From positions 1 to 64,000 of the forward strand of contig NZ_JAEHFX010000011.1 of assembly GCF_016623615.1 (NCBI RefSeq): a DNA stretch of 64,000 nt. The letters run 5' to 3'. This document shows positions 25,493-42,137 of this stretch, piece by piece. A program made the position numbers and the translations under genes. The notes below the pieces were generated by a model. It was not told where the DNA came from and searched no databases. It saw nothing but the letters and a program-made list of their open reading frames with translations. Position 1 is the first letter of the stretch, and each line of letters starts with the position of its first letter. Origin of the DNA: Adhaeribacter terrigena (GTDB lineage Bacteria; Bacteroidota; Bacteroidia; Cytophagales; Hymenobacteraceae).

Positions 25493-26713
25493 ATGAAGCA
25501 TTTAACAAAAATCATTGCCGTGGTATGCTGCTTTTTTGCAGTAGGCGCAAGCGCACAAGATGCCCCGCCACCGGAAAAGCAAAAGGCCATGGAAATTTAT
25601 GGCTTTACCATGATGGATGCCGGCTATAATTTTGGGCAGATACAATCGGACTGGTTCGATACGATGCGGCCCACCAAATTGCCGGCCTTTAAAGACCAAT
25701 ATGGTGCCGATGGTCAGACTTATTTCAGTGTAAGGCAAACCCGTTTCGGGGTGAAAAATTATTTCCCAACCAGCAAAGGCGAATTAAGGACCATTTTCGA
25801 ATTTGAATTGTTTGGAACCGGGGTAGATGCCGGACAAACAACTCTGCGCCTTCGCCACGCTTACGGCGAACTGGGTAAATGGGGCGCCGGCCAATACTGG
25901 AGCCCTTTTATGGACATCGACGTTTTCCCGAATTCTGTAGAATACTGGGGCCCGAACGGAATGGTTTTCTTCCGCAACGTTCAGATCCGCTACATGCCAA
26001 TCCAGGGCGATACCCGGCTGACTTTTGCGTTGGAACGCCCGGGAGCTAGTGCTGACCAGGGAATTTATTCCGATCGGATCGAGCTCGACGGAATTTCACC
26101 GGATTTTTCGCTGCCCGATCTTTCGGCTGAATACCGGTATGGCAGTTCCTGGGGTTATGTAGAACTGGCCGGTATAGTACGCAAGATCGCCTGGGAAGAT
26201 AAAGACACCATTTCGTTAGACTTCAGCGGTGATGCAACCGGCTGGGGTCTGAACCTGAGTTCCGGCATTAAATTCTTCAAAAAAGACATGTTGAAATTGC
26301 AGGTGGTTTACGGCGAAGGCATTCAAAACTATATGAACGATGCCCCGGTAGATATCGGGATCCAGAACCGGCCCGGTGATGCGAACCGCCCACTTGAAGG
26401 AGTGGCTTTGCCAATGCTTGGCGTTGTGGCTTTTTACGACCGTTACTGGGGCGATAAATTCAGCACCTCGATCGGCTATTCCATGCTCGATATCGACAAC
26501 TCCAATGCTCAAACGCCCGATGCTTTCAAAAAAGGACAATACGCTTTGGCTAACCTCCTCTATTATCCTACAGAAAATGCATTGGTGGGTATTGAATACC
26601 AATGGGGCGCCCGCGAGAATTTTAAAGACGGCTGGGATTATGATACATCCAAGATACAGCTCACTTTCAAATACAATTTCTCCCACACTTTTTACCACGA
26701 ACCTAAACCCTGA
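25493..26713 (+). CDS. DcaP-like outer-membrane porin
   Basis: 406 residues with a signal peptide ending near ASAQ (residue 21). The mature protein is an amphipathic beta-barrel with a final FKYNFSHTF strand. The early GFTMMDAGYNFGQIQSDW segment, RQTRFGVKNYFPTSKGEL and RLRHAYGELGKWGAGQYWSPF stretches are like DcaP porins, which carry dicarboxylates and other negatively charged solutes. It is the first gene of the acidic amino acid block and could admit aspartate, asparagine or fumarate; substrate is inferred from context. Confidence 0.85.
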   Translation: MKHLTKIIAVVCCFFAVGASAQDAPPPEKQKAMEIYGFTMMDAGYNFGQIQSDWFDTMRPTKLPAFKDQYGADGQTYFSVRQTRFGVKNYFPTSKGELRTIFEFELFGTGVDAGQTTLRLRHAYGELGKWGAGQYWSPFMDIDVFPNSVEYWGPNGMVFFRNVQIRYMPIQGDTRLTFALERPGASADQGIYSDRIELDGISPDFSLPDLSAEYRYGSSWGYVELAGIVRKIAWEDKDTISLDFSGDATGWGLNLSSGIKFFKKDMLKLQVVYGEGIQNYMNDAPVDIGIQNRPGDANRPLEGVALPMLGVVAFYDRYWGDKFSTSIGYSMLDIDNSNAQTPDAFKKGQYALANLLYYPTENALVGIEYQWGARENFKDGWDYDTSKIQLTFKYNFSHTFYHEPKP

Positions 26714-26791
26714 TCAGCAACGGAATTTCACCCGGCATAGCTGATGGCAAAAATGGACAGCTATTCACAAAACTTTCCTGAAAGGAAATAA

Positions 26792-26820
26792 AAAACGCTA
26801 TCCTTTTCAGGTCAAAAAGT
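26792..26820 (+). repeat. 29-nt AAAACG element
   Basis: A near-consensus copy: AAAACGCTAT, a TTTT run and AAAAAGT. It lies 63 bp before the aspartase start. Confidence 0.9.
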
Positions 26821-26882
26821 AAGGTGAAGGTTGTTGCAGCAAGCTGCAAGGCAATTGCATTTTAATATTAAAGCCTCTAATT

Positions 26883-28430
26883 ATGAAAATAAAATTACGT
26901 TATCCTGCGCTTGCACTTATTATAGTCAGTTCAGTCGGGAATTCCCTTTTTGCTCAGACAACCCGTACTGAAAAAGATCTGTTGGGAGAGAAACAAATTC
27001 CGGCAGATGCTTATTATGGCGTACAAACTGCCCGGGCACTCGAAAATTTCCAGGTAAGCGGCGTTCCGACCAGTTTCTACCCGGATTATGTAAAGGCTTA
27101 CGCAATGGTTAAACTGGCGGCGGCCCGCGCCAATGCCGAAGATGGCAGGCTGAAGCCGGAAAAACTCGCGGCCATAGAAAAAGCATGCCTGGCTGTGATG
27201 GATGGAAAATACCACGAACATTTTTTGGTAGATCTGTATCAAGGGGGCGCCGGAACTTCGGCCAATATGAATGCCAATGAAGTACTAGCCAACATTGCCC
27301 TCGAAATGAGCGGCCATAAAAAAGGGGAATACCAGTTTATTGAGCCGCACGACGACCTGAATATGGGCCAGTCAACCAACGATGTATACCCCACCACGCT
27401 TCACGTAGCCATGCTGCTTCACAACGACAAGGTTGTAAAAGAAGCAAGGGCTTTATCGGCGGCGTTTCATAAAAAAGGCGACGAATTCAAAAACCTGTTA
27501 AAATTAGGCCGCACCGAAGGCCAGGATGCAGTACCCATGACCTTAGGCCAGGAATTTCACGCCTTTGGCTACCAGATAGATGCCGCCATCGATGCCCTGG
27601 TAAAATCGGAGGCTTACCTGTACGAAGAAAATATGGGCGCAACCGCTATTGGTACCGGGATTACTGCCTCGCCGGGTTACGCCGAAAAATGCGCCGTGCA
27701 CCTGGCAAAAATTACCGGTAAACCAATGCATTTAAGTAAAGATCTGGTGGCTGCAACTTCCAGTATGCAGGGCTTTGTAATGTTTTCCGGCGCAATGAAA
27801 AACCTGGCGATAACCCTTTCTAAAATTTCCAGCGATCTGATCTTCCTGGCTTCCGGGCCGCGCACGGGCATTTTCGAGATCAACCTGCCGCCCATTCAGC
27901 CGGGGTCTTCCATTATGCCGGGCAAAGTAAACCCGGTTATGCCGGAACTGATGAACGAAATATGTTTTAAAGCCATCGGCAACGATATGACCGTGACCAT
28001 GGCCTCACAGGACGGTCTGCTGCAGTTAAATGCTTACGAACCTGTGGTAGCAGTTGCAATTATGGAATCGCAGGGTTTGTTCTTTAAAGGTATTCCGTTG
28101 TTCCGGAAGCAATGCATAGAGGGTATTACGGCCAACGAAAAAGTCCTGAAGCATTACATGGAGCGCAGCGTGGGCATCGTAACCGCCCTGAACCCGGTGC
28201 TGGGTTATGACAAAACTACCGAACTGGCCAAAGAAGCTTTACAGTCAGATAAAGGAATTCTGGAACTGATAAAGGAGAAAAACCTGCTTACTGATGCCCA
28301 GATCAAAGAGCTTATGGATCCGGCAAAATTAACGGCCCCAACCCCTATTGCGGGTGCATCAGCCGCTCCTGCCGATAAAAAAGCTTCCGGCGGCAAAAAG
28401 AACAAAAAAGCGAAATCGAAAACAAAATAA
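26883..28430 (+). CDS. aspA: Exported aspartate ammonia-lyase
   Basis: 515 residues. Converts L-aspartate to fumarate and ammonia. The aspartase/fumarase signature GSSIMPGKVNP is at about residues 339-349, with GQSTNDVYPT at about 163-172 and TEGQDAVPM at about 203-211. Unlike the usual cytoplasmic enzyme it begins with a cleavable signal sequence (hydrophobic core LALIIVSSVGNSLF, cleavage after FAQ at residue 25), and it ends in a Lys-rich tail (KKASGGKKNKKAKSK) absent from standard AspA. Followed after 23 bp by an exported asparaginase, so asparagine could become fumarate in the periplasm. Confidence 0.93.
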   Translation: MKIKLRYPALALIIVSSVGNSLFAQTTRTEKDLLGEKQIPADAYYGVQTARALENFQVSGVPTSFYPDYVKAYAMVKLAAARANAEDGRLKPEKLAAIEKACLAVMDGKYHEHFLVDLYQGGAGTSANMNANEVLANIALEMSGHKKGEYQFIEPHDDLNMGQSTNDVYPTTLHVAMLLHNDKVVKEARALSAAFHKKGDEFKNLLKLGRTEGQDAVPMTLGQEFHAFGYQIDAAIDALVKSEAYLYEENMGATAIGTGITASPGYAEKCAVHLAKITGKPMHLSKDLVAATSSMQGFVMFSGAMKNLAITLSKISSDLIFLASGPRTGIFEINLPPIQPGSSIMPGKVNPVMPELMNEICFKAIGNDMTVTMASQDGLLQLNAYEPVVAVAIMESQGLFFKGIPLFRKQCIEGITANEKVLKHYMERSVGIVTALNPVLGYDKTTELAKEALQSDKGILELIKEKNLLTDAQIKELMDPAKLTAPTPIAGASAAPADKKASGGKKNKKAKSKTK

Positions 28431-28453
28431 TCAATCTTAAAGCAATTTGCATT

Positions 28454-29587
28454 ATGAAAAATTTTAACGCCTTTACTATTGCTTTTCTAGCTTGCGCGTT
28501 GCTTTCTGGGAATGCCGTAGCACAAACGAAACCGGTACTGGCTTCGTTTGCCCCGGCTGGCGGAACCAAAACAATAAAATCACCTTCTATAAATAAACCT
28601 GCCCTGCCTAATGTGGTAATTCTGGCAACCGGTGGCACCATTGCCGGTGCTGCAGCCTCCGGTACGCAGGCCGGCTATACTTCCGGACAGGTAACCATCG
28701 ATGCGATGGTAGACGCCGTACCTGATGCCAAAAAACTGGCCAATATTAAAGGGGAACAAATCTCCAACGTGGGTTCTCAGGATATGAGTTTCGAGATTAT
28801 GTTGAAACTGGCCAACCGCATTAACGAACTTACCAAATCCGGCACCGACGGCGTAGTAATTACCCACGGCACCGATACAATGGAGGAAACCGCTTATTTC
28901 CTGAACCTGGTGGTAAAAACCGATAAACCGGTAGTGCTGGTAGGTTCTATGCGTCCAAGTACTGCCATGAGCGCCGACGGCCCGTTAAATCTCTACAACG
29001 CCATTTCGGTAGCCGCCGATCCGGAAGCCAAAAATCACGGCGTAATGCTGGTTATGAACGACTGGATCCATTCGGCGCAAAGCTTTGTAAAAGTAAGCAC
29101 TACTGCCGTTCAAACTTTTATGTCGCCTATGCGGGGTATAATGGGAACTTCCAATTATGGCAAAAATGAATTCTATCGCGTGCCGCACAAAAAATTCGGA
29201 AACAAAAGTGAATTTTCAGTAGATGGAGTAAAAACGTTGCCAAGAGTGGATATCGTTTATGGCTATGTAGATATGGACGGGGAAATGATTGACGCCGCCG
29301 TAAAAAATAAAGCAAAAGGTATTGTAATTGCCGGTCTGGGAAATGGAAATATGACCAAAGCTGCGCTGGAAGCAGTAAAAAGAGCCACCAAAAAAGGTGT
29401 GGTTGTGGTAAGAAGTACCCGCGTTGGAACCGGCGATGTTGGCCGCGATGTGGAAATTAAAGACGCAGAATACGGCACCATTGCCTCTCATGAACTGAAC
29501 CCGCAAAAGTCCAGAATATTGCTAACACTGGCCTTGTTGAAAAACCGTAAACCGGAAGATCTGCAACGTCTCTTTGAGGAATATTAA
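28454..29587 (+). CDS. ansB: Type II L-asparaginase, exported
   Basis: 377 residues. A signal peptide ends near AVAQ (residue 24). Two active-site threonines are in ILATGGTIAG (about 57-66) and THGTDTMEETA (about 137-147); SMRPSTAMSADGPLN follows. These fit periplasmic high-affinity asparaginases, which turn asparagine into aspartate and ammonia. It starts 23 bp after aspA, so the two are surely cotranscribed and act in sequence. Confidence 0.95.
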   Translation: MKNFNAFTIAFLACALLSGNAVAQTKPVLASFAPAGGTKTIKSPSINKPALPNVVILATGGTIAGAAASGTQAGYTSGQVTIDAMVDAVPDAKKLANIKGEQISNVGSQDMSFEIMLKLANRINELTKSGTDGVVITHGTDTMEETAYFLNLVVKTDKPVVLVGSMRPSTAMSADGPLNLYNAISVAADPEAKNHGVMLVMNDWIHSAQSFVKVSTTAVQTFMSPMRGIMGTSNYGKNEFYRVPHKKFGNKSEFSVDGVKTLPRVDIVYGYVDMDGEMIDAAVKNKAKGIVIAGLGNGNMTKAALEAVKRATKKGVVVVRSTRVGTGDVGRDVEIKDAEYGTIASHELNPQKSRILLTLALLKNRKPEDLQRLFEEY

Positions 29588-29613
29588 CGGATCTGGATTC
29601 CCTACTTACCTCT

Positions 29614-29658
29614 ATTGAATTCAGCGCAAACACCAGCAGTTTTTGCGCTGAATTCAAT
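29614..29658. terminator. 17-bp perfect hairpin between ansB and the transporter
   Basis: ATTGAATTCAGCGCAAA (29614-29630) and TTTGCGCTGAATTCAAT (29642-29658) are perfectly complementary around an 11-nt spacer. It lies 27 bp after the ansB stop and probably stops or attenuates transcription, though no long T tract follows. A minus-oriented 29-nt element spans the right arm. Confidence 0.6.
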
Positions 29659-29666
29659 ATCGTTTT
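29638..29666 (-). repeat. 29-nt AAAACG element, minus orientation, CGATA variant
   Basis: On the minus strand AAAACGATA leads and CAAAAACT ends at the exact distance. It lies in the right arm of the 29614 hairpin. Confidence 0.6.
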
Positions 29667-29692
29667 CCGGTGTATTTGCAAAGACCACGATT

Positions 29693-31093
29693 ATGAACAA
29701 GGCAGAAAAAGATACCAAAGAGAAAAAGAAAAGCCGGAAATCCATTATTTACTTTATCGGCTGCCTTGTTTTTTCGCTCGGAATGACCTGGCTTTTGCGG
29801 GAGCCAAACTTTACCGATTCGCAGGTTTACGCGCTGTTTTTGTTGTTCTTCGCCATCAGCCTCTGGATAACCGAAGCCATTCCGCCGTTTGCGGTCGGAC
29901 TTTTTATTTTGGCCTACCTTACTTATACTTTTGGTAATCCACATCTGAATTCCAATCCGGAACCGATAGATAAGTACGTGAATACCTTCTCCAGCAGGGT
30001 TATCTGGCTTTTGCTGGGCGGCTTTTTCCTGGGTGCTGCCATGTCGAAGACCAGGCTGGACATGAAACTGTTAAGGTTTGTGCTGCACCATTCAGGAACC
30101 AACCCCCGGAATATTTTAATAGTACTGATGTTCACAACAATGGTGGCTTCCATGCTGATGTCGGGTACCGCTACTACAGCCATGATCGTGGTGGCTATTA
30201 TGCCGCTTCTGAATACATTGGGAAAATCGGGTATTAGCAAGGCTATGTTGCTTGGCGTTGCAATGGCATCTTCTTTGGGTGGCATGGGCACCATTATCGG
30301 TAGCCCGGCCAATGCAATGACTGTTGGTATTCTGGAAAATGAAGGCGTGAGGGTAAGTTTCCTGAGTTGGATGATTTACGGCCTGCCGGTTGCAATTGTA
30401 CTTACGGCGCTCTGCTGCTGGCTTTTACTTAAAATATTTGTAAAAACAAATGATCCCCTTTCACTTGCTTTTCTGGACAATGATAAAGATAATGAAGAAG
30501 AATCGCCTTTTCAGCAACGCATTGTAATTGGGGTATTGCTGGTAACGATTCTTCTCTGGTTAACTAGTTCCTGGCACGACATTACGGTAGCCGCCGTTTC
30601 GGCAATTCCACTGGTAGTCCTTACGCTTACCCGCGTGCTTACCAGCGCCGATATGAAAGCCTTACCCTGGGATACCCTTTTTTTAGTGGCCGGTGGCCTC
30701 TCGCTCGGAGCTGCGCTGCAATCCACAGAAATTCTGCACCACTATGTGCACCAGTTTAAAGACATAGACATCAACCCCTACGTATTTATTTTGATCTTTG
30801 CGTTAGTCAGCAACATTTTTGCAGGCCTGATGAGCAACGCTGCTTCTACCATGATTTTGGTACCCTTAGGGATGACCTTGCTTGCCGGACTGGAAAAAGA
30901 AGTAGCGCTTAGTATTGCCTTGGCTGCTTCCACGGCAATTTTTTTACCCATTTCAACTACCGCCAACGCCATTGTTTACAGTACAGAATTGCTGGACCAA
31001 AAGGATTTCCGGTTGGTTGGGCTCCTGATCGGAGTGCTGGGGCCAGTTTTGGCTGTCTTATGGGTCTTGTTGGTAGGCGGAAAGCTTTTCTGA
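29693..31093 (+). CDS. Divalent anion:Na+ symporter (SLC13/DASS family)
   Basis: 466 residues from ATG 29693 (a TTG at 29615 would extend into the hairpin). A basic, Lys-rich N-terminus precedes about 11-12 membrane helices. Family marks are WITEAIPPFAVGL near the N-terminus, SGTATTAMIVVAIMPLL and SLGGMGTIIGSPANAM in the first half, and SNAASTMILVPLGM and PISTTANAIVYST in the second. DASS carriers take up fumarate, succinate or malate with sodium. Next to exported aspartase, the most sensible cargo is fumarate. Confidence 0.9.
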   Translation: MNKAEKDTKEKKKSRKSIIYFIGCLVFSLGMTWLLREPNFTDSQVYALFLLFFAISLWITEAIPPFAVGLFILAYLTYTFGNPHLNSNPEPIDKYVNTFSSRVIWLLLGGFFLGAAMSKTRLDMKLLRFVLHHSGTNPRNILIVLMFTTMVASMLMSGTATTAMIVVAIMPLLNTLGKSGISKAMLLGVAMASSLGGMGTIIGSPANAMTVGILENEGVRVSFLSWMIYGLPVAIVLTALCCWLLLKIFVKTNDPLSLAFLDNDKDNEEESPFQQRIVIGVLLVTILLWLTSSWHDITVAAVSAIPLVVLTLTRVLTSADMKALPWDTLFLVAGGLSLGAALQSTEILHHYVHQFKDIDINPYVFILIFALVSNIFAGLMSNAASTMILVPLGMTLLAGLEKEVALSIALAASTAIFLPISTTANAIVYSTELLDQKDFRLVGLLIGVLGPVLAVLWVLLVGGKLF

Positions 31094-31252: not shown

Positions 31253-32602
31253 TTATAACTGGAACTGAACCCGTGACTGGAAGAATTGTGTGCCGCCTTG
31301 CAGGCCAAAACGGTCGAGCTCACCGTAGCCGTACGTAAATTCGAGTCTAAAATTATCAGTTAGGTGCCAGTTCATCATGGGTGTAATGCGCCAGAATTTT
31401 CCGCCGGAAATTTCCGCATCACTCAGGTCTATGTAAGACAAACGCAACACCGCTTCAAGTGCGCCAAAGCCACCATTAAATAATGGCCGGTCCGGCGAAA
31501 TTCCTTTAAAAAATCCCCCGGCGGTATTGTAAGCCCGTGTTTCGCCGGTTATCATCCAGGTAGCCACAACTTCTCCGCCGTGAAACCGCGGATTCCCTTT
31601 TTCCGGAGAGTCTACATCCTGGAACCAATATTCTGAGCCAAAAAGCCAGGCCCCTTGCCGGTAGTAAATTTCACCGCCGTACATAAACGTTTGGGTGGCC
31701 CGAAACGCTTTCGTATCTACAAAATAGGGGGCTGTCCAGGCTTCCGGCCGCGACCGTAGTTGCAAGGTGTCTTTATCTACATTTCCCTTCCGGAAGTTGG
31801 CTCCCAGGTGAAAAACTTTCCGTTCTTTTTCCGATAGGATTGGCAACCACATCACCCTTAAAACCACCTGGTTGTCGTAAGAGGAAAAGGATTGGTCTTC
31901 GTTGTATTTATCTACAAAATATCCGGCATTCCAGCCAATACGGGGTTTAGGCAGAAAACCCAGATACTTTATGCCATCGCCCAGAATAGGAACGGTAGCA
32001 TCGCTCATGGTAGAGCGTTCCTGGGTCCAGCCGGCGTAACCCACCATTACTTTATTCAGCGAAAAACCTTCCTTGGTCCGGCCAATAAAAAAGCTGCCCC
32101 ACAATTCCGGAACCCCGATCATAATGCCCGTTTCGCGGAATAACCACGAGTTGGTAGGTTCGCTGTACATAATGCCTACTGAATAGGTAATCGGGTGTTT
32201 CATTTTTTCCGGTCCGAATCTGCCCTTAAATACAAACCGGCCGTCGCGGAATTTAACGTCTTCTTCAATATCACCAACCTGCTTTTTGTTTTCGTCGTCC
32301 TGCAAAAAAGTGCCAAAATCGTAAAGCAAACCGCCGCCTACACGCACACTGAAATAAGGCCCTCTGTATTCATTGAATTTCACGAGTTGGCGGCGTGGCG
32401 TTTCCACGTCGGCCAGGTCACCGGCTTCAATTACCCGGACTATTGAAGAATCGGGCGCAACTGCAGTGGTATCCTGGGCAAAAGAAGAAAACGGCAACTG
32501 GAGCATTATAAAAGCCAGGGAAACAATTCTGATTTGTTTTTTACAAAAGCAAGCAGCCTTTGAATAATCAGACAAAACGTATTTAAAAGTTATGTAACGC
32601 AT
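31253..32602 (-). CDS. Porin_O_P (OprP/OprO-like) outer-membrane porin
   Basis: 449 residues. The signal sequence ends near SSFAQ (about residue 42) and the rest forms a beta-barrel ending in FFQSRVQFQL with a terminal Leu. RDGRFVFKGRFGPE, YSVGIMYSEPTNSW and the repeated W/G/Y strands are typical of the Porin_O_P family, which takes up phosphate, polyphosphate or other anions. It is the only minus-strand gene of the acidic amino acid block; its role there is unclear. The start is uncertain; the given one yields a long N-terminus. Confidence 0.82.
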   Translation of the reverse strand: MRYITFKYVLSDYSKAACFCKKQIRIVSLAFIMLQLPFSSFAQDTTAVAPDSSIVRVIEAGDLADVETPRRQLVKFNEYRGPYFSVRVGGGLLYDFGTFLQDDENKKQVGDIEEDVKFRDGRFVFKGRFGPEKMKHPITYSVGIMYSEPTNSWLFRETGIMIGVPELWGSFFIGRTKEGFSLNKVMVGYAGWTQERSTMSDATVPILGDGIKYLGFLPKPRIGWNAGYFVDKYNEDQSFSSYDNQVVLRVMWLPILSEKERKVFHLGANFRKGNVDKDTLQLRSRPEAWTAPYFVDTKAFRATQTFMYGGEIYYRQGAWLFGSEYWFQDVDSPEKGNPRFHGGEVVATWMITGETRAYNTAGGFFKGISPDRPLFNGGFGALEAVLRLSYIDLSDAEISGGKFWRITPMMNWHLTDNFRLEFTYGYGELDRFGLQGGTQFFQSRVQFQL

Positions 32603-33152: not shown

Positions 33153-34220
33153 ATGAAAAAAAGATATTCAGGCTTCCTGACAACGGTATTAGCCTGCTTC
33201 CTTTTCTGTTTTTCAGGTTTAAGTTTCGAAGCCAATGCCCAGAAAAAGAAATCAAAAACCAAGGACGGCACAACTGCCACCTCCGATAAAGGCAGCATCG
33301 AAGCGGCTCTGAATGAAGCCTATACCAAATACAAAGACCTGAAAGAAGGAAAAAATGCCGACTACATTCCGGAACTTGCCAAAGTACCTTCCGAGCAGTT
33401 TGCCATTGTAATTGTTACCACCGACGGCCAGGTTTTTTCCAAAGGCGACATCGATGCCTTGTTTTCCATCCAGTCGATTTCCAAAGTAATTACGCTTGCC
33501 CGCAATATAGAAGATCATGGCGCCCAGGCAATTCAGGATAAGATCGGCGTAGACCCGACCGGCGAAAAATTCAATTCGGCTGTGATCGTGGAAAATAAAA
33601 AAGGCAAGGAAATAAATCCGCTGGTAAATGCCGGAGCCATTGCTTCAACCAGCATGATCAAAGGCAAAGATTATAATGAAAAATGGAATACCATTATGCA
33701 GGTTCACAACGATTTTGCCGGCAGACAATTAGCCGTGAACGATCCCGTTTATAAAAGCGAAGCGGCCACTAACCAACACAACCAGGCCCTTGCTTCCCTT
33801 ATGAATTCCTTCGAACGGATGTATTTCGATCCGCCCCAATCGGTTGATATTTATACCAAGCAATGCGCGATAAATGTAAACACCAAAGATCTGGCCCAAA
33901 TGGCAGCCACCTTTGCTAACGGCGGAACCAACCCGGTAACGAAGAAAAAAGTGGTTTCCCCGCAAACAGTGGCGCATACCTTGCCGGTTATGGCAACCTG
34001 CGGCCTCTACGACGACTCCGGAATCTGGTTCTATAATGTGGGCCTGCCGGCAAAAAGCGGCGTTGGCGGTGGCATCATTGCAGTAGTTCCGGGCCAGTAT
34101 GGTATTGCTGCCTTTTCACCCAGATTAGATGAAGCCGGCAACAGCGTGCGCGCTCAGAAAGCAATAACTGACATCGTAAACAAGCTGAACCTGAATCCTT
34201 ACCTGGTCCAACCGAAATAA
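33153..34220 (+). CDS. glsA: Exported glutaminase
   Basis: 355 residues. Hydrolyses glutamine to glutamate and ammonia. The serine-dependent (beta-lactamase-fold) active site is visible as FSIQSISKV (Ser-x-x-Lys) at about residues 108-116, followed by NPLVNAGAIAS and the CGLYDDSGIWFY and SGVGGGI stretches. A signal peptide (cleavage near ANAQ, residue 30) is followed at once by a Lys-rich linker (KKKSKTK). Most GlsA enzymes are cytoplasmic, so export is unusual and fits the neighbouring exported aspartase and asparaginase. Confidence 0.93.
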   Translation: MKKRYSGFLTTVLACFLFCFSGLSFEANAQKKKSKTKDGTTATSDKGSIEAALNEAYTKYKDLKEGKNADYIPELAKVPSEQFAIVIVTTDGQVFSKGDIDALFSIQSISKVITLARNIEDHGAQAIQDKIGVDPTGEKFNSAVIVENKKGKEINPLVNAGAIASTSMIKGKDYNEKWNTIMQVHNDFAGRQLAVNDPVYKSEAATNQHNQALASLMNSFERMYFDPPQSVDIYTKQCAINVNTKDLAQMAATFANGGTNPVTKKKVVSPQTVAHTLPVMATCGLYDDSGIWFYNVGLPAKSGVGGGIIAVVPGQYGIAAFSPRLDEAGNSVRAQKAITDIVNKLNLNPYLVQPK

Positions 34221-34241
34221 AAACCGATCATGAGTTCAGGC

Positions 34242-34270
34242 AAAACGGTATCCTTTTCAGGAAAAAAAGT
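34242..34270 (+). repeat. 29-nt AAAACG element overlapping a terminator
   Basis: AAAACGGTAT, TTTT and AAAAAGT in standard spacing. Its last six bases are the start of the terminator stem at 34265. Confidence 0.8.
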
Positions 34271-34304
34271 CCCGGGCATTTCCAGCAAGAAAGCCGGGAC
34301 TTTT
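34265..34304 (+). terminator. Terminator after glutaminase
   Basis: AAAAGTCCCGG pairs with CCGGGACTTTT around an 18-nt loop. Its presence supports a start for the next gene at ATG 34314 rather than 34230. Confidence 0.75.
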
Positions 34305-34313
34305 CTTGTTTTT

Positions 34314-35633
34314 ATGAAGCACGCATTTTCGCTTCTCCTATTAATAACGCTATGGTTTTTACCTGAAAAAGTGCAGGCGCAGGACGACATGAAAGTGGAA
34401 GCCTACGATACCCTGAACATCGAAAAAGAACCCATTCCCACGACCCAGGCCGGAGAATTCAGCCCTGGGCGAGGTTTCGATCTTTACAAAAGCAAGATGG
34501 GCAGCCTGAATATAAGCGTTTATGGTTTGATCCGGTATACCAATCACCTGCCCGCCACGCAATCTTTTACCGACCACCTGGGCAGAGAAAGAAATGTAGA
34601 TACCCGCCACGATATTCAATGGCACCGTACGTTCGTTTGGGCTTCCGGCTTTTTTTATACGCCTAAACTGCGCTATACCATAAGCGTTTGGGGCTTGGCT
34701 TCTACCGGCCAAACACTGGTTTTCGGTAATATGCATTATCAGGTACACAAAGCCTTACGCATTGGGGCAGGAATTGGACCTAACCTGGGAACCAGATCAC
34801 TGCAGGGACCCTGGCCGTATTTTATGGCCACCGACCGGCAAATGGCAGAAGAAGCAGTCCGCCCTGGTTTCACCGGGGGTTTCTGGCTTACCGGCGAACC
34901 CTTACCAAGATTCAATTACTGGCTTTTCCTGGGAAATAACCTTAGCACGCTGGGCATAAACAACACCCAGGAAACCCGCGATCTGACCAAAAGTGCCAGT
35001 ATCTGGTGGATGCCAACCACCGGGGAATTTGGTCCGCGCGGCGGCTTCGGCGATTTTGAGCAACACGAAAAACTGGCAACCCGCTTTGGTGCTTCCTATG
35101 TATATGCCCGCGAAAACCGCTTTAACGATGTTTCCAACCCAACGCCCGCTGAAACCCAGGTCAGGCTTTCCGACGGCGTATATTTGTTCGAAACCGGTTC
35201 CCTGGCAGAAGGCGTAACCATCCGGAATGCGCGTTACCAGATCGGCGCGGTAGACCTGGGTTTAAAATTCAAAGGCTTCCATTTGCAAACTGAATTATAC
35301 CTGCGCAAACTCTCCAACTTTAACGCCACCGGTCCAATTCCGGAATCTGAATCGGAGATCACCGACGATGGTTTTTATGTGCAGGCTTCCTATTCGATCA
35401 TCAAGAAAAAGCTGGATATCTACGGCGCGTATTCCACGATCAGAGACCAGTTCGAACGCAATCCCTGGGAAGTGGCGGGCGGCCTGAGCTTTTTCCCTTC
35501 CGGCACCCGCAGCTGGCGCATAAATCTGCACGTTATCCGGATCGAGAAATCGCCGGCCGGCTCCACTTTTGGCTATTATACGGCCGGCCAAAGCGGTACT
35601 ACGGTTTCTTTAGCTACCGATATTCTGCTGTAA
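34314..35633 (+). CDS. Outer-membrane beta-barrel protein, paralogue 1
   Basis: 439 residues from ATG 34314, which gives a good signal peptide (SLLLITLWFLP, cleavage near VQAQ). The mature protein is a beta-barrel that resembles the product at 36900 throughout: GRGFDLYKSKMGSLNISVYGLIRY corresponds to GMGFRLVTKKEGTLN; both share GPWPYFMA/GNWPHWLR and the LRLSDG segment. The ends (FGYYTAGQSGTTVSLATDILL) are typical barrel strands. Probably a porin-like channel; substrate unknown. A longer start at 34230 crosses the terminator. Confidence 0.75.
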   Translation: MKHAFSLLLLITLWFLPEKVQAQDDMKVEAYDTLNIEKEPIPTTQAGEFSPGRGFDLYKSKMGSLNISVYGLIRYTNHLPATQSFTDHLGRERNVDTRHDIQWHRTFVWASGFFYTPKLRYTISVWGLASTGQTLVFGNMHYQVHKALRIGAGIGPNLGTRSLQGPWPYFMATDRQMAEEAVRPGFTGGFWLTGEPLPRFNYWLFLGNNLSTLGINNTQETRDLTKSASIWWMPTTGEFGPRGGFGDFEQHEKLATRFGASYVYARENRFNDVSNPTPAETQVRLSDGVYLFETGSLAEGVTIRNARYQIGAVDLGLKFKGFHLQTELYLRKLSNFNATGPIPESESEITDDGFYVQASYSIIKKKLDIYGAYSTIRDQFERNPWEVAGGLSFFPSGTRSWRINLHVIRIEKSPAGSTFGYYTAGQSGTTVSLATDILL

Positions 35634-35681: not shown

Positions 35682-36836
35682 ATGAAAAGCTCAGCGCAAC
35701 AAAAATGGTATCTTTTCTGGCTTAAAAACTGCGGACTGATCCTGCTCTTTTTTTTCGTGGCGAATTTGGAAACGCTTGCCCAGAAGAAGAAAAAGAAAGC
35801 TTCTGCCCCACCGCCAAACTACGATTTCCACGATTCGCATTTTCACCTCACGAACTATATTCAGGAAGGCATTAGTCCGCAGAAATTCCTGGAAATTATG
35901 GGCAACCGGGTAGGCCGTTCAACCTTGTTTGGCATTCCCTTGCAGCAAATGTGGTCGTATCAGAATTCCGGAAAATTTAGCCCGACTTACTATTTGCAAA
36001 CCGATGCGCCGCTCTACTATTATTCCTTTACTGACGCGCACATCGCCAGCGTGTACAACAAACTATCTACGGAAGAAAAACAACGTTTCGACCCGATGAT
36101 AACCGGTTTTAACCCTTCCGATATGTACGCCAAAGCGCACATCAAACGGGCTTTGCAAACGTTTCCAGGCGTATTTTCGGGCATCGGCGAATTTACTATT
36201 CATAAAGAATTTGTTTCCTCCAAAATTCCCGGCGAAGTGGCCAGTCTTACTAATCCGGCGCTGGACAGCATTCTCGATTTTGCCGGCGAAGTAGGTTTGG
36301 CGGTAATCCTGCACAATGATATGGATATGCCTTTCGCCAAAGCCGGCGCCGAACCGGTGTACCTCACCCAAATGAAAGACCTGCTGAAACGCCACCCGAA
36401 AACTACCATTATCTGGGCGCACATCGGGTTGGGAAGAATTGTGCATCCGGCGCAAAATGCCGCTTCCGCCACGCCCGGCGAACGCAGCCCGATCTTTATG
36501 GAAATTGTGGAAGGAATTCTAAGCGATCCGGCTTATAAACACGTCAATTTTGATATTTCCTGGGATGAAGTTGCTAAATACGCGGTCAGTTCTCCCCAGG
36601 CTTTGCAGAATACCATAACCGTTTTGAACAAATATCCGGACCGTTTCCTGTTTGGTTCCGATGTGGTAGCGCCTAAAGATCCGGAAATGTATTTCGCGGT
36701 TTTTAATATGTACGAACCGCTCTGGAAAGGCCTTACGCCAGAAGCCAGCGAAAAAGTACGCAAAGGAAACTACGAACGCATTTTCAACGAAGCCCGGCAG
36801 AAAGTAAGGAATTGGGAGAAAGCAAATGTGAAATAA
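35682..36836 (+). CDS. Exported amidohydrolase-family enzyme
   Basis: 384 residues. The signal segment (CGLILLFFFVANLETLAQ) is followed directly by a Lys-rich stretch (KKKKKAS). The domain belongs to the amidohydrolase-related (amidohydro_2) family: DSHFHL gives the two metal-binding histidines at about residues 51-53, GIGEFTIHKE and ILHNDMDM supply further ligands, IIWAHIGLGR and the final LFGSDVV the catalytic Asp. Such enzymes hydrolyse or decarboxylate small ring or amide compounds. It sits between two paralogous barrel proteins; substrate unknown. Confidence 0.85.
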   Translation: MKSSAQQKWYLFWLKNCGLILLFFFVANLETLAQKKKKKASAPPPNYDFHDSHFHLTNYIQEGISPQKFLEIMGNRVGRSTLFGIPLQQMWSYQNSGKFSPTYYLQTDAPLYYYSFTDAHIASVYNKLSTEEKQRFDPMITGFNPSDMYAKAHIKRALQTFPGVFSGIGEFTIHKEFVSSKIPGEVASLTNPALDSILDFAGEVGLAVILHNDMDMPFAKAGAEPVYLTQMKDLLKRHPKTTIIWAHIGLGRIVHPAQNAASATPGERSPIFMEIVEGILSDPAYKHVNFDISWDEVAKYAVSSPQALQNTITVLNKYPDRFLFGSDVVAPKDPEMYFAVFNMYEPLWKGLTPEASEKVRKGNYERIFNEARQKVRNWEKANVK

Positions 36837-36864
36837 ATCTTGACCAAGCTGGATATAAAATCTA

Positions 36865-36893
36865 AAAACGCTATCCCTTTAACCCGAAAAAGT
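36865..36893 (+). repeat. 29-nt AAAACG element
   Basis: AAAACGCTAT, a CTTT run and AAAAAGT; it ends 6 bp before the likely TTG start of the next gene. Confidence 0.85.
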
Positions 36894-36899
36894 AACGCC

Positions 36900-38207
36900 T
36901 TGAAAAGCCTTTTAAAATATTTTGTGCTACTCTTTATTCTGTTTTCAGGAGTATTGACTGTCAGGCCGGCCTTGGCCCAGATACCTTCCAACCCTGCCGA
37001 GACAGACAGCATCAAAACCGTAGCGGAGCATTTACCCGGCATGGGTTTTAGGCTGGTAACCAAAAAAGAGGGCACCCTCAATTTTGCGACTTATCTGACC
37101 TCTCGTTACCTGAACCAGCAAGGCATAAATAGCAGCTATACCGATGCTTTTGGCCGGACTTTTAATTTGCAGAAGCGCAACGACCTTCAGTTTCAAAAAG
37201 TAATGCTCTACTTCAAAGGCTGGCTGTTCGATCTGAATTTCCGGTATTTGCTTTATGGCTGGACCTCGGGTTCAAATAATGGTCAGAATGGCTCAGTTAT
37301 AATTGCGGGCAACGTGCAGTATAAAATTTCTGATTTCCTGGATCTGGGAGTTGGGGTTGGGGGGCTTCCTACCTCCCGTTCTATGATCGGTAACTGGCCC
37401 CATTGGCTGCGGCAGGATGCCAGGCCCATGGGTGAAGAATTTTTCCGCGGATCTTTTACCACGGGAGTCTGGGCGCAGGGTAAAATTACCAACAGCTTGT
37501 TTTATAAAACCATGGTAGGCAACAACCTGAGCCAGATGGGAATAGATGCCGGCCAGCTCGACGATGAATTCGATACCTGGAGCACCGCCTTGCTTTGGAA
37601 AACGGAAAACTTCGGTAACCTGGCAACTTACGGTGATTTTGAAAAAGTGCAAACCCCGGCTTTTATGCTCGGTGCATCTTATACCCGCTCCGACGAAACC
37701 CGCGAATCACAGCCCGGGATCGAAGCTCCAGAAAACACCCAGCTCCGGCTTTCGGATGGTACCCGTATTTTCTTTGCCAACACCATTGCCGATAGTTCGA
37801 GCGTGCACGCAGCCAGGTACCGGATGGCTTCTTTTAACGGTGGTCTGAAATATAAAGGTATTTCCCTGGACGGGGAATATTTCCTGCGGTGGCTCACCGA
37901 TTTTAAAGCCGATGGCCGGTTGCCTTTTTCAGAACTTTTCGACCACGGTTTTACAGCACAGGCTGCCTACATGCTCATCGATAAAACGCTCATGGTTTAC
38001 AGTACCGGCTCATACATAAACGGCGAATACGGCAAGCCTTGGGAAATTACTGCCGGCCTGAACTGGTACCCACACAAAAACCGAACGCTGCGCATTAATT
38101 CCGAAGTAATTTCAGTAGAACGTTCGCCCGTTGGTTACCTTAGTTATCCTACGGTAGTTGGCGCCACCGGCACTGTTTTCATGATGAACTTAGAGCTATT
38201 TTACTAA
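36900..38207 (+). CDS. Outer-membrane beta-barrel protein, paralogue 2
   Basis: 435 residues if it starts at TTG 36900, which yields a clean signal peptide (MKSLLKYFVLLFILFSGVL, cleavage near ALAQ). A TTG at 36840 would add a leader that crosses the 29-nt element. The mature barrel matches the product at 34314 in order of blocks, including the IPSNPAETDS-like N-terminus, LRLSDGTRIFF and the final FMMNLELFY. It follows the exported amidohydrolase closely and probably shares its transcript. Likely a specific channel; substrate unknown. Confidence 0.75.
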   Translation: MKSLLKYFVLLFILFSGVLTVRPALAQIPSNPAETDSIKTVAEHLPGMGFRLVTKKEGTLNFATYLTSRYLNQQGINSSYTDAFGRTFNLQKRNDLQFQKVMLYFKGWLFDLNFRYLLYGWTSGSNNGQNGSVIIAGNVQYKISDFLDLGVGVGGLPTSRSMIGNWPHWLRQDARPMGEEFFRGSFTTGVWAQGKITNSLFYKTMVGNNLSQMGIDAGQLDDEFDTWSTALLWKTENFGNLATYGDFEKVQTPAFMLGASYTRSDETRESQPGIEAPENTQLRLSDGTRIFFANTIADSSSVHAARYRMASFNGGLKYKGISLDGEYFLRWLTDFKADGRLPFSELFDHGFTAQAAYMLIDKTLMVYSTGSYINGEYGKPWEITAGLNWYPHKNRTLRINSEVISVERSPVGYLSYPTVVGATGTVFMMNLELFY

Positions 38208-38354: not shown

Positions 38355-38382
38355 AAAACGCTATGCTTTTAGACTAAAAAGT
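38355..38382 (+). repeat. 29-nt AAAACG element, one base short
   Basis: AAAACGCTAT, TTTT and AAAAAGT; the spacer is one nucleotide shorter than in other copies. It lies 69 bp before the next start. Confidence 0.8.
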
Positions 38383-38451
38383 AAGGCCAAAACCTGGAAT
38401 GCCCCCAGGAAGAAAAGAGGAATTAGTAATCTGTAAAAACTGGATAAAATT

Positions 38452-39243
38452 ATGGACATAGCACATATCATCACGTCGTTGCATCCTATAATCTTGTTCG
38501 GGCTCGTAATTGTGTTCTGTATTTTATGTGCTGAAGGGGGTGCCATTGTTGCGCAATTCCGGGTAAAAAAAGGCATTAAAGAGCCTGATGCACCGCTAGG
38601 AACCGCAGTTGGCGCAATGTTGGGGCTCCTTGCTTTTATGCTAGGCTTTAATTTTTCGATCACAGCTTCCCGTTTTGCTGATAGAAAAGAATTGACAATT
38701 AGACAGGCAAATGCCATTGGAACCTGTTACCTGCGTACCAGCACCATTCCCGAAAAACAAAAACAGGAGATCCGGAAATATTTCCGCCAATATGTAGATA
38801 TTCTGCTCGGTAAAGGTTACGACGAAACCCGGATAGAAGAAGCTGTTAAAAAACTGGACAAACTGCATATTCAGATCTGGCGACAAACCGCTTCGCTGGT
38901 ACAGGAAAATATGGATTCTGAACTAAGATCTTTATTTACCGCCTCGGTTAACAGTGTAATTGATATAGCCGGGGAAAGAAAAACAGTTGCCCTGGTTTTC
39001 CGGATCCCGTCTATGCTCTGGACCTCGCTATTCTTACTGGCCGGTTTAAGTATGTTTTCCATTGGCTACCAGACCGGAACGTTCGGCCACCGGCGGATCC
39101 TGGATTTGCCTTTACTGGCGGCCGCTTTTGCCTTGGTAATCGTTATGATAGCCAATATGGATTCTGTCGCGGAGCATCGTTTCAAAGTAAGCCTGAAACC
39201 ATTTTCCGATCTGGAAGAAATGATGCAGGAAGAAATTCCCTGA
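38452..39243 (+). CDS. DUF4239 (bestrophin-like) membrane protein, copy 1
   Basis: 263 residues. Two N-terminal membrane helices (ILFGLVIVFCILCAEGG and LGLLAFMLGFNFSITASRF), a roughly 110-residue cytoplasmic helical domain with the RQANAIGTCYLR motif, then two C-terminal helices. That plan and LLAFMLGFxFS are typical of DUF4239, described as a bestrophin-like domain, so an ion channel role is possible. The next gene is a paralogue. Confidence 0.85.
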   Translation: MDIAHIITSLHPIILFGLVIVFCILCAEGGAIVAQFRVKKGIKEPDAPLGTAVGAMLGLLAFMLGFNFSITASRFADRKELTIRQANAIGTCYLRTSTIPEKQKQEIRKYFRQYVDILLGKGYDETRIEEAVKKLDKLHIQIWRQTASLVQENMDSELRSLFTASVNSVIDIAGERKTVALVFRIPSMLWTSLFLLAGLSMFSIGYQTGTFGHRRILDLPLLAAAFALVIVMIANMDSVAEHRFKVSLKPFSDLEEMMQEEIP

Positions 39244-39280
39244 AAAAAGCGAACGCATTCTGATCTGGATTCCGGAATTC

Positions 39281-39309
39281 AAAACGCTATGATTAAAAAG
39301 GCAAAAACT
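39281..39309 (+). repeat. 29-nt AAAACG element
   Basis: AAAACGCTAT, an AAAAA middle and CAAAAACT at the end; 7 bp before the start of the second DUF4239 gene. Confidence 0.75.
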
Positions 39310-39316
39310 CTGAATT

Positions 39317-40108
39317 ATGGGTGCAGCAAACCTCATCTCTTCCATGCCTTCGTGGGCGCTGTTTGCGCTCCTTGTAATCATTGGCGTGCTGGCAACCCAG
39401 GTGGGTTTCTGGATGGGCCGCCGCCGGCACCAAACCGAAATAAAAGAATCTACCGCCCACATTAGCACCGCGGTTTCAGCCATTCTGGGACTTTTGTCTT
39501 TTATGCTCGGTTTCACTTTTTCTACCACTTCTTCGCGTTTCGCCGAAAGAAAAGGTCTGGTCATTTCTCAGGCGAACGCCATCGGAACCAGTTATTTGCG
39601 CGCGGGACTTCTGCCGGATAAGCAGAAAATAACTATCCGGAAACTGTATGCGGAATACACCGATCTTTTACTAAAAATGCCAGAAGCAACAGATATAAAA
39701 CCGTTGTTCGACCGCCGCGACCACATCCATATGCTGATCTGGGAACAAGCCATTTCCCTGGAAAAAGAAAAAGACTTTCCTCCGGCAATAATATCACTTT
39801 TTATCACTTCAGTGAACCAGATTTTCGACCTTACGGAAGAACGAAATACGGTAGCCCTGGTTTTCAGGATCCCCGACGCATTGTGGAGAGCCTTATTTTT
39901 ACTCAATGCCATGAGCATGTTCGCTTTCGGGTACCAGAAGGGCATAAACGGAAACCATAAAAGCTTCGGATTCCCCATACTGCCCATTGCCTACGCCATC
40001 GTAATCGTACTGATCGCCGATATGGATTCCACCAGTTTCCGCCGGTTCAAAGTAAGCCAGCAGCCGCTTATTAATCTGCAGAAAATGATCAGAATGAGTA
40101 CGCCTTAA
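39317..40108 (+). CDS. DUF4239 (bestrophin-like) membrane protein, copy 2
   Basis: 263 residues, the same length and topology as the preceding gene: LGLLSFMLGFTFSTTSSRFAERK, SQANAIGTSYLRAG, TVALVFRIPDALWRALF and the closing VIVLIADMDSTSFRRFKVS all have counterparts there. A tandem duplication, each copy preceded by its own 29-nt element. Function unknown; channel activity is only suggested by the family name. Confidence 0.85.
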   Translation: MGAANLISSMPSWALFALLVIIGVLATQVGFWMGRRRHQTEIKESTAHISTAVSAILGLLSFMLGFTFSTTSSRFAERKGLVISQANAIGTSYLRAGLLPDKQKITIRKLYAEYTDLLLKMPEATDIKPLFDRRDHIHMLIWEQAISLEKEKDFPPAIISLFITSVNQIFDLTEERNTVALVFRIPDALWRALFLLNAMSMFAFGYQKGINGNHKSFGFPILPIAYAIVIVLIADMDSTSFRRFKVSQQPLINLQKMIRMSTP

Positions 40109-40115
40109 AAACAAA

Positions 40116-40144
40116 AAAACGCTATGCTTTTAGCTCCCAAAAGT
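40116..40144 (+). repeat. 29-nt AAAACG element
   Basis: AAAACGCTAT, TTTT and CAAAAGT; 25 bp before the BASS transporter start. Confidence 0.85.
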
Positions 40145-40169
40145 AACTCCTTTTATTAATCCGGTTTAG

Positions 40170-41027
40170 ATGAATTTCGTTGAAATAATTAAGCTCGCTC
40201 TAAAAACAAGCCTTTTTCTTACAGCTTTGGGCTTCGGGTTAAAAGCATCGCCTGGTGCGGCTTTTTATTTGTTCCGAAACCCCGCCCAATTGCTGCGTTC
40301 AGTTTTGGCAATGAATATTATTATGCCATTGGTGGGCATTTCGATGGCTCTGATTTTAGACCTGCTCCTACTGGTAAAAGTTGCCTTAATTGCTATTTCT
40401 GTTTCACCGCTGGCTCCCATTTTTCCTAAAAAACCCTTACGGGCCGGTGGCCGGGAAGAATACATAATCGGGTTAATGATGGCGGTTTCTTTGTTTTCCA
40501 TAATCCTGATCCCGATCACGATGGAACTTATTGAGAAAATAGCTCACAAACCCATTTCCATTTCTAGTAAAGCCATTTTAATCACTGTATTGGTAACCGT
40601 AATTATACCTCTGGCCTTCGGTATCGCCATCCGGCATTTTATACCCGTTCTCTCCGAAAAGATCACAAATGTGGTGGCCCGGATAGCACAGGTTATATTG
40701 ATCATTACCGTAATACCAGTGCTTTTCAAGGTTTTACCGTCCATTTTACAATTGATTGGCAACGGTACAGTTTTAGCCATTGCAGCTTTTGTAGGGATTG
40801 GGGTTTTAGTTGGTCATATACTTGGAGGCCCGGCCGGAGAAGACCGAACCGTACTTGCACTTGCAACAGCAACGCGACATCCGGCGATCGCCATTACGCT
40901 GGCCAGCGCCAATTTACCCGACCACAAACTTGTACCCGCAACCATTTTATTATACCTGCTCATTAATGCTGTTGTGGTAATACCATACCTGAAATGGCTG
41001 CAAAAAGCAAAAACTGAAATGTATTAA
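40170..41027 (+). CDS. BASS-family (bile acid:Na+ symporter-like) transporter
   Basis: 285 residues with about nine membrane helices. The two-domain pattern, an early NIIMPLVGISMAL helix, the SPLAPIFPKKPLRAGG loop and the conserved TATRHPAIAITLASAN crossover segment place it in the BASS/SBF superfamily. Relatives carry bile acids, keto acids or organic anions with sodium. Substrate cannot be inferred with certainty; with its neighbours a small organic acid is plausible. Confidence 0.82.
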   Translation: MNFVEIIKLALKTSLFLTALGFGLKASPGAAFYLFRNPAQLLRSVLAMNIIMPLVGISMALILDLLLLVKVALIAISVSPLAPIFPKKPLRAGGREEYIIGLMMAVSLFSIILIPITMELIEKIAHKPISISSKAILITVLVTVIIPLAFGIAIRHFIPVLSEKITNVVARIAQVILIITVIPVLFKVLPSILQLIGNGTVLAIAAFVGIGVLVGHILGGPAGEDRTVLALATATRHPAIAITLASANLPDHKLVPATILLYLLINAVVVIPYLKWLQKAKTEMY

Positions 41028-41148
41028 ATTATCGTGAGCGCAAACGAAAGCTGGTCCAACAGGAATTAATTTCACAAAGCATACTTAGGCAATAAAAATA
41101 TTCCGGAGAATTTCAGGCACATCCTGGCTGGTGTTAATTAAAGCGAAA

Positions 41149-41177
41149 AAAACACTATCCTTTTCACGCTAAAAAGT
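41149..41177 (+). repeat. 29-nt AAAACG element, CACTA variant
   Basis: AAAACACTAT, TTTT and AAAAAGT, in the spacer between the convergent BASS and cyanophycinase genes. Confidence 0.75.
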
Positions 41178-41285
41178 AAAAAATAATGCACCGGGAGAAA
41201 ACCTGAAATTAGTTTAGCGCTACAAAAAAGCAGCGTTTTTCAGGCCGGGTGCGGAAAGATATTGACTGAAGGTAAAAATATAATA

Positions 41286-42137
41286 TCAATAAAAATTTGC
41301 TTCTTTAAATTCAAAAATCTCCCCTTTTGGCAGCACATGAACAATTATGCGTTGGAGGCTTAAATGGTTGCCGTTCAGAATCTCGGCATAATTATTTTTC
41401 TTTAGTTCACGTCCGTCTATAACCACCACCATACCGGAACCAATTGTTTCAACTTTATTATTTCCGGTAACCAGAATAGCCGTGTCTTCGCCCAGCCCAA
41501 TACCAATGTGGTCGGGAAAGGCTGCTACCGCTTCAAGCAATCGGGAAAAACGGCTCCGGACAATAAAATGCGTATCCAGAATCATCTGGTACAGAAAACC
41601 CAGCCCTGTGCCCGTCTGCACAGAACCCTTTATCAACGGTATTTCTTCAAAACTGCCCATTATCATTACCTGACTCATACACATAGCTCCGGCACTGGTT
41701 CCTGCAATCAGAAAATTTTCTTCATCGTGGTACCTCTCCTGCATAATACGCAGAGCTTTAGAACCAATAAAAAAACTAACCAGCCGGTTTTGGTCCCCGC
41801 CACTGATCATTACCGCGTGTGCTTGTTTCAGGCGGTCCAGAAATTCCTGTTTATTGGCATCTTCTTTATTTTTAATATGCATGATCCCTACATCGGGCAC
41901 ATCCAGGTTTTTAAAAGCTTCCTGATACATTACCCCAACTTCCTCCGGAATCAGCGAAGCGCTGGTTATTACTTCTATTTTAGGATTGTCAATATTTATT
42001 TCTTTTATAATCCGCTTCAAAACGCCCTCCGAAAGAAATATATTTTTCCGCTGAAGCTCTTCTTCCGACATTGTTTCATAATTGCCTTTGTCTTCGTGAC
42101 CGCCAATAATTATCAGTTTGCCTTTTGCGTTTTTCAT
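41286..42137 (-). CDS. Cyanophycinase-family peptidase (S51)
   Basis: 283 residues from ATG 42137, which has GGAAGAA just ahead; a longer frame to 42281 lacks support. The fold is a class I glutamine-amidotransferase-like peptidase: KLIIIGGHEDKG opens it, the nucleophile Ser is in AGTSAGAMCMS, GGDQNRL precedes it and LDTHFIVRSRFSRLLEAV and GIGLGEDTAI follow, as in cyanophycinase. That enzyme releases Asp-Arg dipeptides from cyanophycin. No signal peptide is visible, so it would be cytoplasmic. No cyanophycin synthetase is present in the window. Confidence 0.88.
   Translation of the reverse strand: MKNAKGKLIIIGGHEDKGNYETMSEEELQRKNIFLSEGVLKRIIKEINIDNPKIEVITSASLIPEEVGVMYQEAFKNLDVPDVGIMHIKNKEDANKQEFLDRLKQAHAVMISGGDQNRLVSFFIGSKALRIMQERYHDEENFLIAGTSAGAMCMSQVMIMGSFEEIPLIKGSVQTGTGLGFLYQMILDTHFIVRSRFSRLLEAVAAFPDHIGIGLGEDTAILVTGNNKVETIGSGMVVVIDGRELKKNNYAEILNGNHLSLQRIIVHVLPKGEIFEFKEANFY

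Follow-up and report, generated by a model that had tools for sequence, protein, structure and literature searches.

In standard teaching, aspartase works in the cytoplasm. In the closest known system, that of Campylobacter jejuni, the secreted asparaginase AnsBs operates with GGT, DcuAB, DctA and Peb uptake; asparagine (and glutamine) is deamidated in the periplasm, the product is imported partly by C4-dicarboxylate carriers, and AspA acts after aspartate has been imported (PMC4178425). Asparaginase and aspartase also stand together, converting asparagine to fumarate, in the ans operons of Bacillus subtilis (ansAB), Rhizobium (ansPAB) and Corynebacterium glutamicum (AnsR, AnsA2, AspA2, AnsP), and in the latter two clusters an amino-acid permease is present and the enzymes act inside (PMC9145765). 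Here we describe a locus of Adhaeribacter terrigena (Hymenobacteraceae), at positions 25493–42137 of the window, i.e. the whole 64,000-nucleotide stretch analysed (contig NZ_JAEHFX010000011.1, positions 1 to 64,000). The locus shares the asparaginase–aspartase pairing of the ans operons and the predicted periplasmic deamidation of C. jejuni. In contrast to the former, its enzymes carry export signals and its carriers belong to dicarboxylate families; in contrast to the latter, the aspartase itself, hereafter AspAx, bears a signal peptide, and its partner is the asparaginase AnsB. What is new here is an aspartase with an export signal, together with the conserved locus organised around it. No description of an exported (periplasmic, secreted or extracellular) aspartase was found among the listed titles and abstract openings in the open-licence literature, where one listed paper, on Candida, contains the phrase 'secreted aspartase', and a search there with aspartase active-site terms likewise returned no exported form; a prior description is possible.

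The preliminary description of the window had reported signal peptides on the aspartase, the asparaginase and the glutaminase (GlsA), and this is borne out: a Sec-type signal peptide is recognizable by eye at the N-terminus of each. In AspAx it reads MKIKLRYPALALIIVSSVGNSLFA/Q, with the cut predicted after A24 and before Q25. Relatives of AspAx were collected from named genomes, and the best 80 of 144 were kept, giving 81 loci with the window included. A crude scripted rule (positive n-region, uncharged hydrophobic stretch, small-x-small cut, bonus for Gln at +1) was passed by 76 of these 81 aspartases, all 76 with Gln at +1, a residue which the rule favoured. A signal peptide was visible by eye in four of the five misses (L088, L089, L100 and L156), bringing the total to 80/81. 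When the Gln bonus was removed, 75 of the 84 proteins in the BLAST cluster (3 of them cytoplasmic) passed, and the best cut lay at a Gln, from some start, in 60. On its own the rule is unspecific: among mixed neighbours, of which many look like membrane or exported proteins, 349 of 587 pass if any start in the first 40 codons may be used. The useful control is not these neighbours but the cytoplasmic aspartases, none of which passed at its own N-terminus (0/53; 0/36 plain and 0/17 N-terminally extended). For AnsB, 74 of the 75 linked copies passed.

With regard to the destination of these proteins, the search with NCBIfam models matched no type IX C-terminal sorting domain in AspAx, AnsB or GlsA; we take the NCBIfam library to include models for these domains. 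Since no such family was matched, the periplasm is the likelier predicted site for all three, rather than the cell surface. The AspAx clade, with an n-h-c signal peptide followed by Gln at +1, fits the Q-rule of Bacteroidetes, in which Sec/SPI exports carry a Gln at +1 that is expected to become pyroglutamate; no aspartase is named in the excerpted text of that study (PMC5837995).

The catalytic signatures of aspartase are kept in AspAx, both across alignment A1 and in comparison with 1jsw and 1j3u, namely the serine of the SS loop, GSSIMPxKVN, QSTND and GGAGTS, as are the catalytic positions T125, S164-T165-N166, T211, S342-S343, K348 and N350. The amine-contact position departs from expectation. 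Glu212 of AspAx aligns with Gln191 of Escherichia coli AspA (1jsw) and His188 of Bacillus AspB (1j3u; numbering by hand on the alignments), and in AspB His188 and Asn142 contact the amine group (PMC11744663). The sequence GRTE is present in all 81 exported-clade loci, as GRTEGQDAVP in 79 and GRTEMQDAVP in two, and a further genome, G647, has GRTELQDAVP; all 53 cytoplasmic aspartases have GRTQLQDAVP. Because Glu occupies the amine contact while the other catalytic positions are kept, AspAx is most probably an aspartase whose amine pocket has changed. The glutamate may adapt it to the conditions of the periplasm, with external pH and low ammonia. The profile NF008909, which AspAx passes, does not discriminate here, because the fumarase of the same genome passes as well (542.7 bits against a threshold of 510). 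The score of AspAx against the fumC model TIGR00979 is 155 bits under its score against the aspA model TIGR00839. As a side observation, a lysine-rich stretch at 28370–28427 lies at the C-terminus of AspAx and is seen only in the window and A. soli rows of alignment A1; similar stretches directly follow the likely cut in GlsA (33240–33270) and in the exported amidohydrolase (35780–35800), and electrostatic anchoring by these three stretches is possible.

The exported enzymes are additions to the genome and not its only forms, because it also encodes a second aspartase of 468 residues (no signal peptide by eye; TIGR00839 687.7 bits, cut-off 681.2). A type I asparaginase and a class II fumarase, FumC, are encoded as well, at 325 bits (cut-off 260.5) and 790 bits (cut-off 664.75), respectively. 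GlsA, on the other hand, is the only glutaminase, being the sole PF04960 match in the genome search. Two Flavobacterium species, F. aquariorum and F. taihuense, have a cytoplasmic-type aspA, with GRTQLQDAVP, directly 5' of the exported gene (L097:8543-9952 and L156:8541-9950), and this side-by-side arrangement argues against redundancy. Separately, 17 cytoplasmic aspartases from several other Bacteroidota families (L051-L056, L058, L059, L062, L064-L067, L069 and L071-L073) were seen to carry an N-terminal extension of ~160 residues, in open frames of about 617–655 residues; by eye the extension looks like a cyclic-nucleotide-binding (CRP-like) domain.

Judged from the sequences, the exported aspartases are a discrete clade, patchily distributed across Bacteroidota. 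Identity to AspAx is 64–90% within the clade and at most 53% for cytoplasmic forms, and the closest named relative, at 90%, is that of the congener Adhaeribacter soli. In a draw of 60 genomes from the family, only the window's genome and this congener carry the exported form; 28 of the matches in non-carriers were checked as loci and the remainder judged by identity. A general occurrence in the family was ruled out, since 56 of the other 58 genomes have matches of at most 52% identity only and two have none at E 1e-100. A draw of 341 genomes from the order added five carriers at 74–80%, a sixth match at 50% being of the cytoplasmic type, and a draw of 395 genomes from the phylum gave five at 76–82%, one of them already among the earlier carriers, and one at 64%. 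The named-genome scan found the clade in Adhaeribacter, Paraflavisolibacter, Taibaiella, Niastella, Flavihumibacter, Flavobacterium, Algoriphagus, Chryseolinea and in Bacteroidales and other metagenome-assembled genomes, including matches at 65% in such genomes labelled Acidobacteria and Calditrichaceae. In this sample 26 of 80 titles read Flavobacterium (by eye), three genomes supply two loci each, and L085 is the same contig as in the Adhaeribacter genome G001.

In a tree of 135 rows a single branch (Shimodaira–Hasegawa-like approximate likelihood ratio test, SH-aLRT, 99) splits 81 exported from 53 cytoplasmic sequences. The exported rows comprise 80 of the 81 loci and G647, L115 having been dropped for its shortened row; the outgroup is a very distant fumarase, and no root position is claimed. 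L082 was left out of alignment A1, and L133 out of alignments A2, A3 and A4. The window and A. soli sequences adjoin one from Chitinophagaceae, and this placement, together with the absence of the gene from the rest of the family draw, suggests horizontal transfer. The block itself has no island signature in base composition, scanned in 4 kb steps.

The gene neighbourhood was compared across the 81 loci by means of clusters, defined as single-linkage BLAST groups of script-called open reading frames. AnsB is found in 75 loci, and in 57/57 of those whose flanks each exceed 7.5 kb. Six loci lack it: five are shorter than 10 kb, and in the last one, L117 (12.5 kb), aspA lies 1 kb from the end. 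The pairing emphasized in the preliminary description, with 23 bp between aspA and ansB in the window, recurs as adjacent genes on the same strand in 72 of the 81 loci, in the order aspA–ansB in 53 and ansB–aspA in 19. That the two genes stay together even where their order is reversed is good evidence that selection acts on them as a pair. The same description had named, as an outcome that would speak against it, relatives that keep these genes in unrelated places and lack exported forms; the conserved pairing and the exported clade instead favour its idea. The remaining partners are more variable. A porin, of three groups or of the OMPa/b type, is present in 69 loci, the DcaP cluster in 38 (37 of the 38 copies on the aspA strand) and the Porin_O_P cluster in 34. 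The glutaminase unit is recurrent, with GlsA in 18 loci, the amidohydrolase in 17 and both in 16. A Dcu carrier accompanies aspA in 31 loci and a DASS carrier in 14, the window included, always on the aspA strand; 37 loci have at least one of the two (Dcu only 23, DASS only 6, both 8). A whole-genome search of 12 exported-aspartase genomes found Dcu in five, with one match each, at most 1.7 kb from the exported aspA.

Gene families, signal peptides, cytoplasmic paralogues, an exported clade with its own active-site signature and gene linkage can thus all be read in the sequences, and we regard the locus as a likely module for 'external deamination' in the periplasm. Porins would let in asparagine, aspartate and glutamine; exported AnsB would convert asparagine to aspartate and ammonia; and AspAx would convert aspartate to fumarate and a second ammonia, still in the periplasm. 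A Dcu- or DASS-type carrier would then take up the nitrogen-free C4-dicarboxylate, presumably fumarate, for the tricarboxylic acid cycle. The exported glutaminase, with porin-like proteins of its own, would provide a parallel step from glutamine to glutamate. We infer that AspAx and AnsB are active enzymes, and that the main purpose of the route would be carbon and energy. For the wider family we lean towards a picture in which a previously undescribed periplasmic aspartase, marked by the amine-pocket glutamate, forms a mobile two-enzyme core with asparaginase II; lineages would add to it their own porins, C4-dicarboxylate carriers and exported glutaminase unit, such that both nitrogens of asparagine would be removed outside the inner membrane and the carbon skeleton alone imported.

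Several observations weigh against this interpretation. Neither Dcu nor DASS is found in 44 of the 81 loci (33 of the 57 with full flanks). The window's DASS protein passes its family cut-off and aligns with VcINDY-type chains, but its two motifs read SGT and SNA, not SNT; the SNT motifs are what we take to be the carboxylate-holding sites of VcINDY. Of the 13 linked DASS relatives, 12 have SNT as their first motif and one has SNS; at the second motif nine have SNT and one SNS, and in three it was not captured. No Dcu was found in the window's genome. A. soli has no DASS above the cut-off and no Dcu anywhere, and the genome G482 has no match to either, in searches confined to these carrier types; in A. 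soli the DASS position between ansB and the porin is taken by a relative of cyanophycinase. Consequently, with deviating DASS motifs, an intervening hairpin (Table 1) and no DASS in A. soli, import is the weakest part of the scheme in Adhaeribacter. The proposal in the preliminary description, deamination outside followed by import of a C4 acid, accordingly stands in its general logic, which has comparative support, and less well in its choice of carrier: DASS accompanies only 14 loci, with a motif-deviant copy in the window, and Dcu 31. Apart from import, one clade member (L120) shows a signal peptide neither by the rule nor by eye, AspAx remains below the 681.2-bit cut-off of the aspA equivalog model TIGR00839 and lacks the Gln or His expected at the amine contact, and an ammonium transporter (PF00909) is encoded in 9 of the 12 exported-aspartase genomes.

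The frequency of Dcu raises the possibility that the module serves mainly to supply an electron acceptor, the fumarate formed outside being exchanged for succinate by a Dcu antiporter at low oxygen. Dcu is the most frequent linked carrier, and the C. jejuni review describes asparaginase-derived aspartate as giving rise to the electron acceptor fumarate (PMC4178425). However, the genome of the window has no Dcu, and the DASS carriers are, by their family name, Na+ symporters; we regard fumarate respiration as a possible but rather doubtful main role. The substrate of the lyase could also differ. Since the cytoplasmic paralogue passes TIGR00839 and AspAx, with Glu at the amine site, does not, it is conceivable that Glu212 directs the enzyme to another amine-bearing succinate derivative and that AnsB is linked for a different reason, and the invariance of this residue (81/81) would be in keeping with such a role. 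Against this stand the constant pairing with an asparaginase, whose product is aspartate, the conservation of the remaining catalytic positions and the 155-bit lead of the aspA over the fumC model, which together render a different substrate improbable.

Alternatively, ammonia itself could be the desired product, as a nitrogen source or for neutralising acid in the periplasm, given that one block encodes three exported enzymes predicted to release it and that ammonium transporters are common among the carriers of AspAx. The transporter is nevertheless absent from both Adhaeribacter genomes (G000 and G001), as it is from G647, among 22 genomes searched; the other 19, and all 14 control genomes, have it. 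C4 carriers are moreover linked in 37 of the 81 loci, and no ammonium carrier is among the identified neighbour clusters, most of the rarer clusters having been left unidentified. Because Adhaeribacter has no such transporter, carbon use fits better than transporter-based nitrogen scavenging, and the nitrogen-supply role offered in the preliminary description is unlikely here in that form; the absence speaks against transporter-based recovery of ammonium, not against diffusion of ammonia. We consider a primary demand for ammonia hardly probable. Finally, the weak specificity of the bare signal-peptide rule would allow for the genes being together by chance, or for the signal peptides being misread upstream extensions. 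The cytoplasmic aspartases do not pass the same rule, however, the Glu signature is common to the entire clade, and in the window no ATG or GTG lies from 14 residues before to 8 residues after the start of the catalytic core of AspAx, the sole start codon being a TTG inside the core. An accident or artefact of this kind is thus extremely unlikely, and external deamination for carbon and energy is retained as the preferred explanation.

The remaining features of the block are collected in Table 1; the aspartase, asparaginase, glutaminase, DASS, porin and cyanophycinase genes listed in the preliminary description were all recovered by profile searches.

Table 1. Features of the A. terrigena locus, in window coordinates, with the evidence for each assignment
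Feature	Coordinates	Strand	Evidence
DcaP-family outer-membrane porin with signal peptide	25493..26713	+	PF19577, 94.5 bits (cut-off 27)
Exported aspartase AspAx, 515 aa	26883..28430	+	NF008909 640 bits; TIGR00839 590 bits; TIGR00979 (fumC) 435 bits
Type II asparaginase AnsB with signal peptide	28454..29587	+	TIGR00520, 441 bits (cut-off 314.3)
Hairpin between ansB and DASS	29613..29659	+	Predicted RNA folding energy -26.3 kcal/mol; z -8.25 relative to shuffled sequence
DASS-family anion symporter	29693..31093 (ATG start; TTG start of the open reading frame tool, 29615)	+	TIGR00785, 229.6 bits (cut-off 198.6)
Porin_O_P family outer-membrane protein	31253..32602	-	PF07396, 64.7 bits
Exported glutaminase A (GlsA)	33153..34220	+	TIGR03814, 372 bits (cut-off 255.4)
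OMPa, porin-like outer-membrane beta-barrel, no Pfam match	34230..35633	+	Predicted model and Foldseek
Exported Amidohydro_2 / ACMSD-like metal-dependent enzyme	35682..36836	+	PF04909, 41.4 bits
OMPb, second porin-like protein, paralogue of OMPa	36840..38207	+	32% identity to OMPa (alignment A3)
Two tandem Bestrophin-like proteins, between OMPb and SBF-family carrier	38452-40108		PF14023
Cyanophycinase	41286..42137	-	TIGR02069, 204 bits (cut-off 126.6)

The DcaP-type porin belongs to the same Pfam family as the DcaP porins of Acinetobacter, of which DcaP3 is required by cells growing on several di- and tricarboxylic acids (PMC12338516). The gap between ansB and the ATG start of the DASS gene measures 105 bp and holds the hairpin, an uninterrupted stem of 18 pairs plus 2 without a T-tract, which may separate expression of the carrier from that of aspA–ansB. 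Scans for promoters and terminators gave no excess over shuffled sequence (22 vs 18.1 ± 4.6 and 22 vs 19.7 ± 5.2, respectively). Further downstream, glsA, OMPa, the amidohydrolase gene and OMPb form a tight plus-strand run with gaps of 9, 48 and 3 bp. In GlsA, S108 and K111 are invariant in alignment A4, in line with the SxxK that we take to be the catalytic motif of glutaminase A. The predicted model of OMPa (mean pLDDT 70.5) has as its top Foldseek match an OprO mutant (4rjx, E 4.6e-12, TM about 0.5), and the fold search with the amidohydrolase returned 2ffi and ACMSD at the top; its matches are metal-dependent hydrolases, ACMSD-like or otherwise, with TM of about 0.4–0.6.

On the 3' side of OMPb follow the two Bestrophin-like proteins, an SBF-family carrier and then the cyanophycinase. 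The latter had been listed with the block, and was rejected as a member of the exported set, as no signal peptide is seen by eye and the gene lies on the opposite strand. The same contig encodes a full-length cyanophycin synthetase at C2:96328-98916 (L165, L174), with 1197 bits against a cut-off of 850 and at a distance of about 54 kb from the cyanophycinase gene, and by eye no cyanophycinase is among the open reading frames in the 14 kb around it. A cytoplasmic Asp-Arg storage cycle, run by cyanophycinase and cyanophycin synthetase, is the likelier setting of this gene in Adhaeribacter.

Should enzymes of the exported clade prove active beyond the inner membrane, the whole catabolic route, and not deamidation alone, would be periplasmic in many Bacteroidota. 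Ammonia would then be released to neighbouring cells and nitrogen-free carbon imported, in carriers which, by their record titles, are strains from soil, water and sludge. In practical terms, a signal peptide combined with GRTE[GML]QDAVP, next to ansB, is a marker that separates the exported from the cytoplasmic form, and the natural exchange of Gln or His for Glu in the active site is of interest for aspartase engineering. For Adhaeribacter and its counterparts in other families, the locus suggests an unusual manner of feeding on amino acids from the outside.

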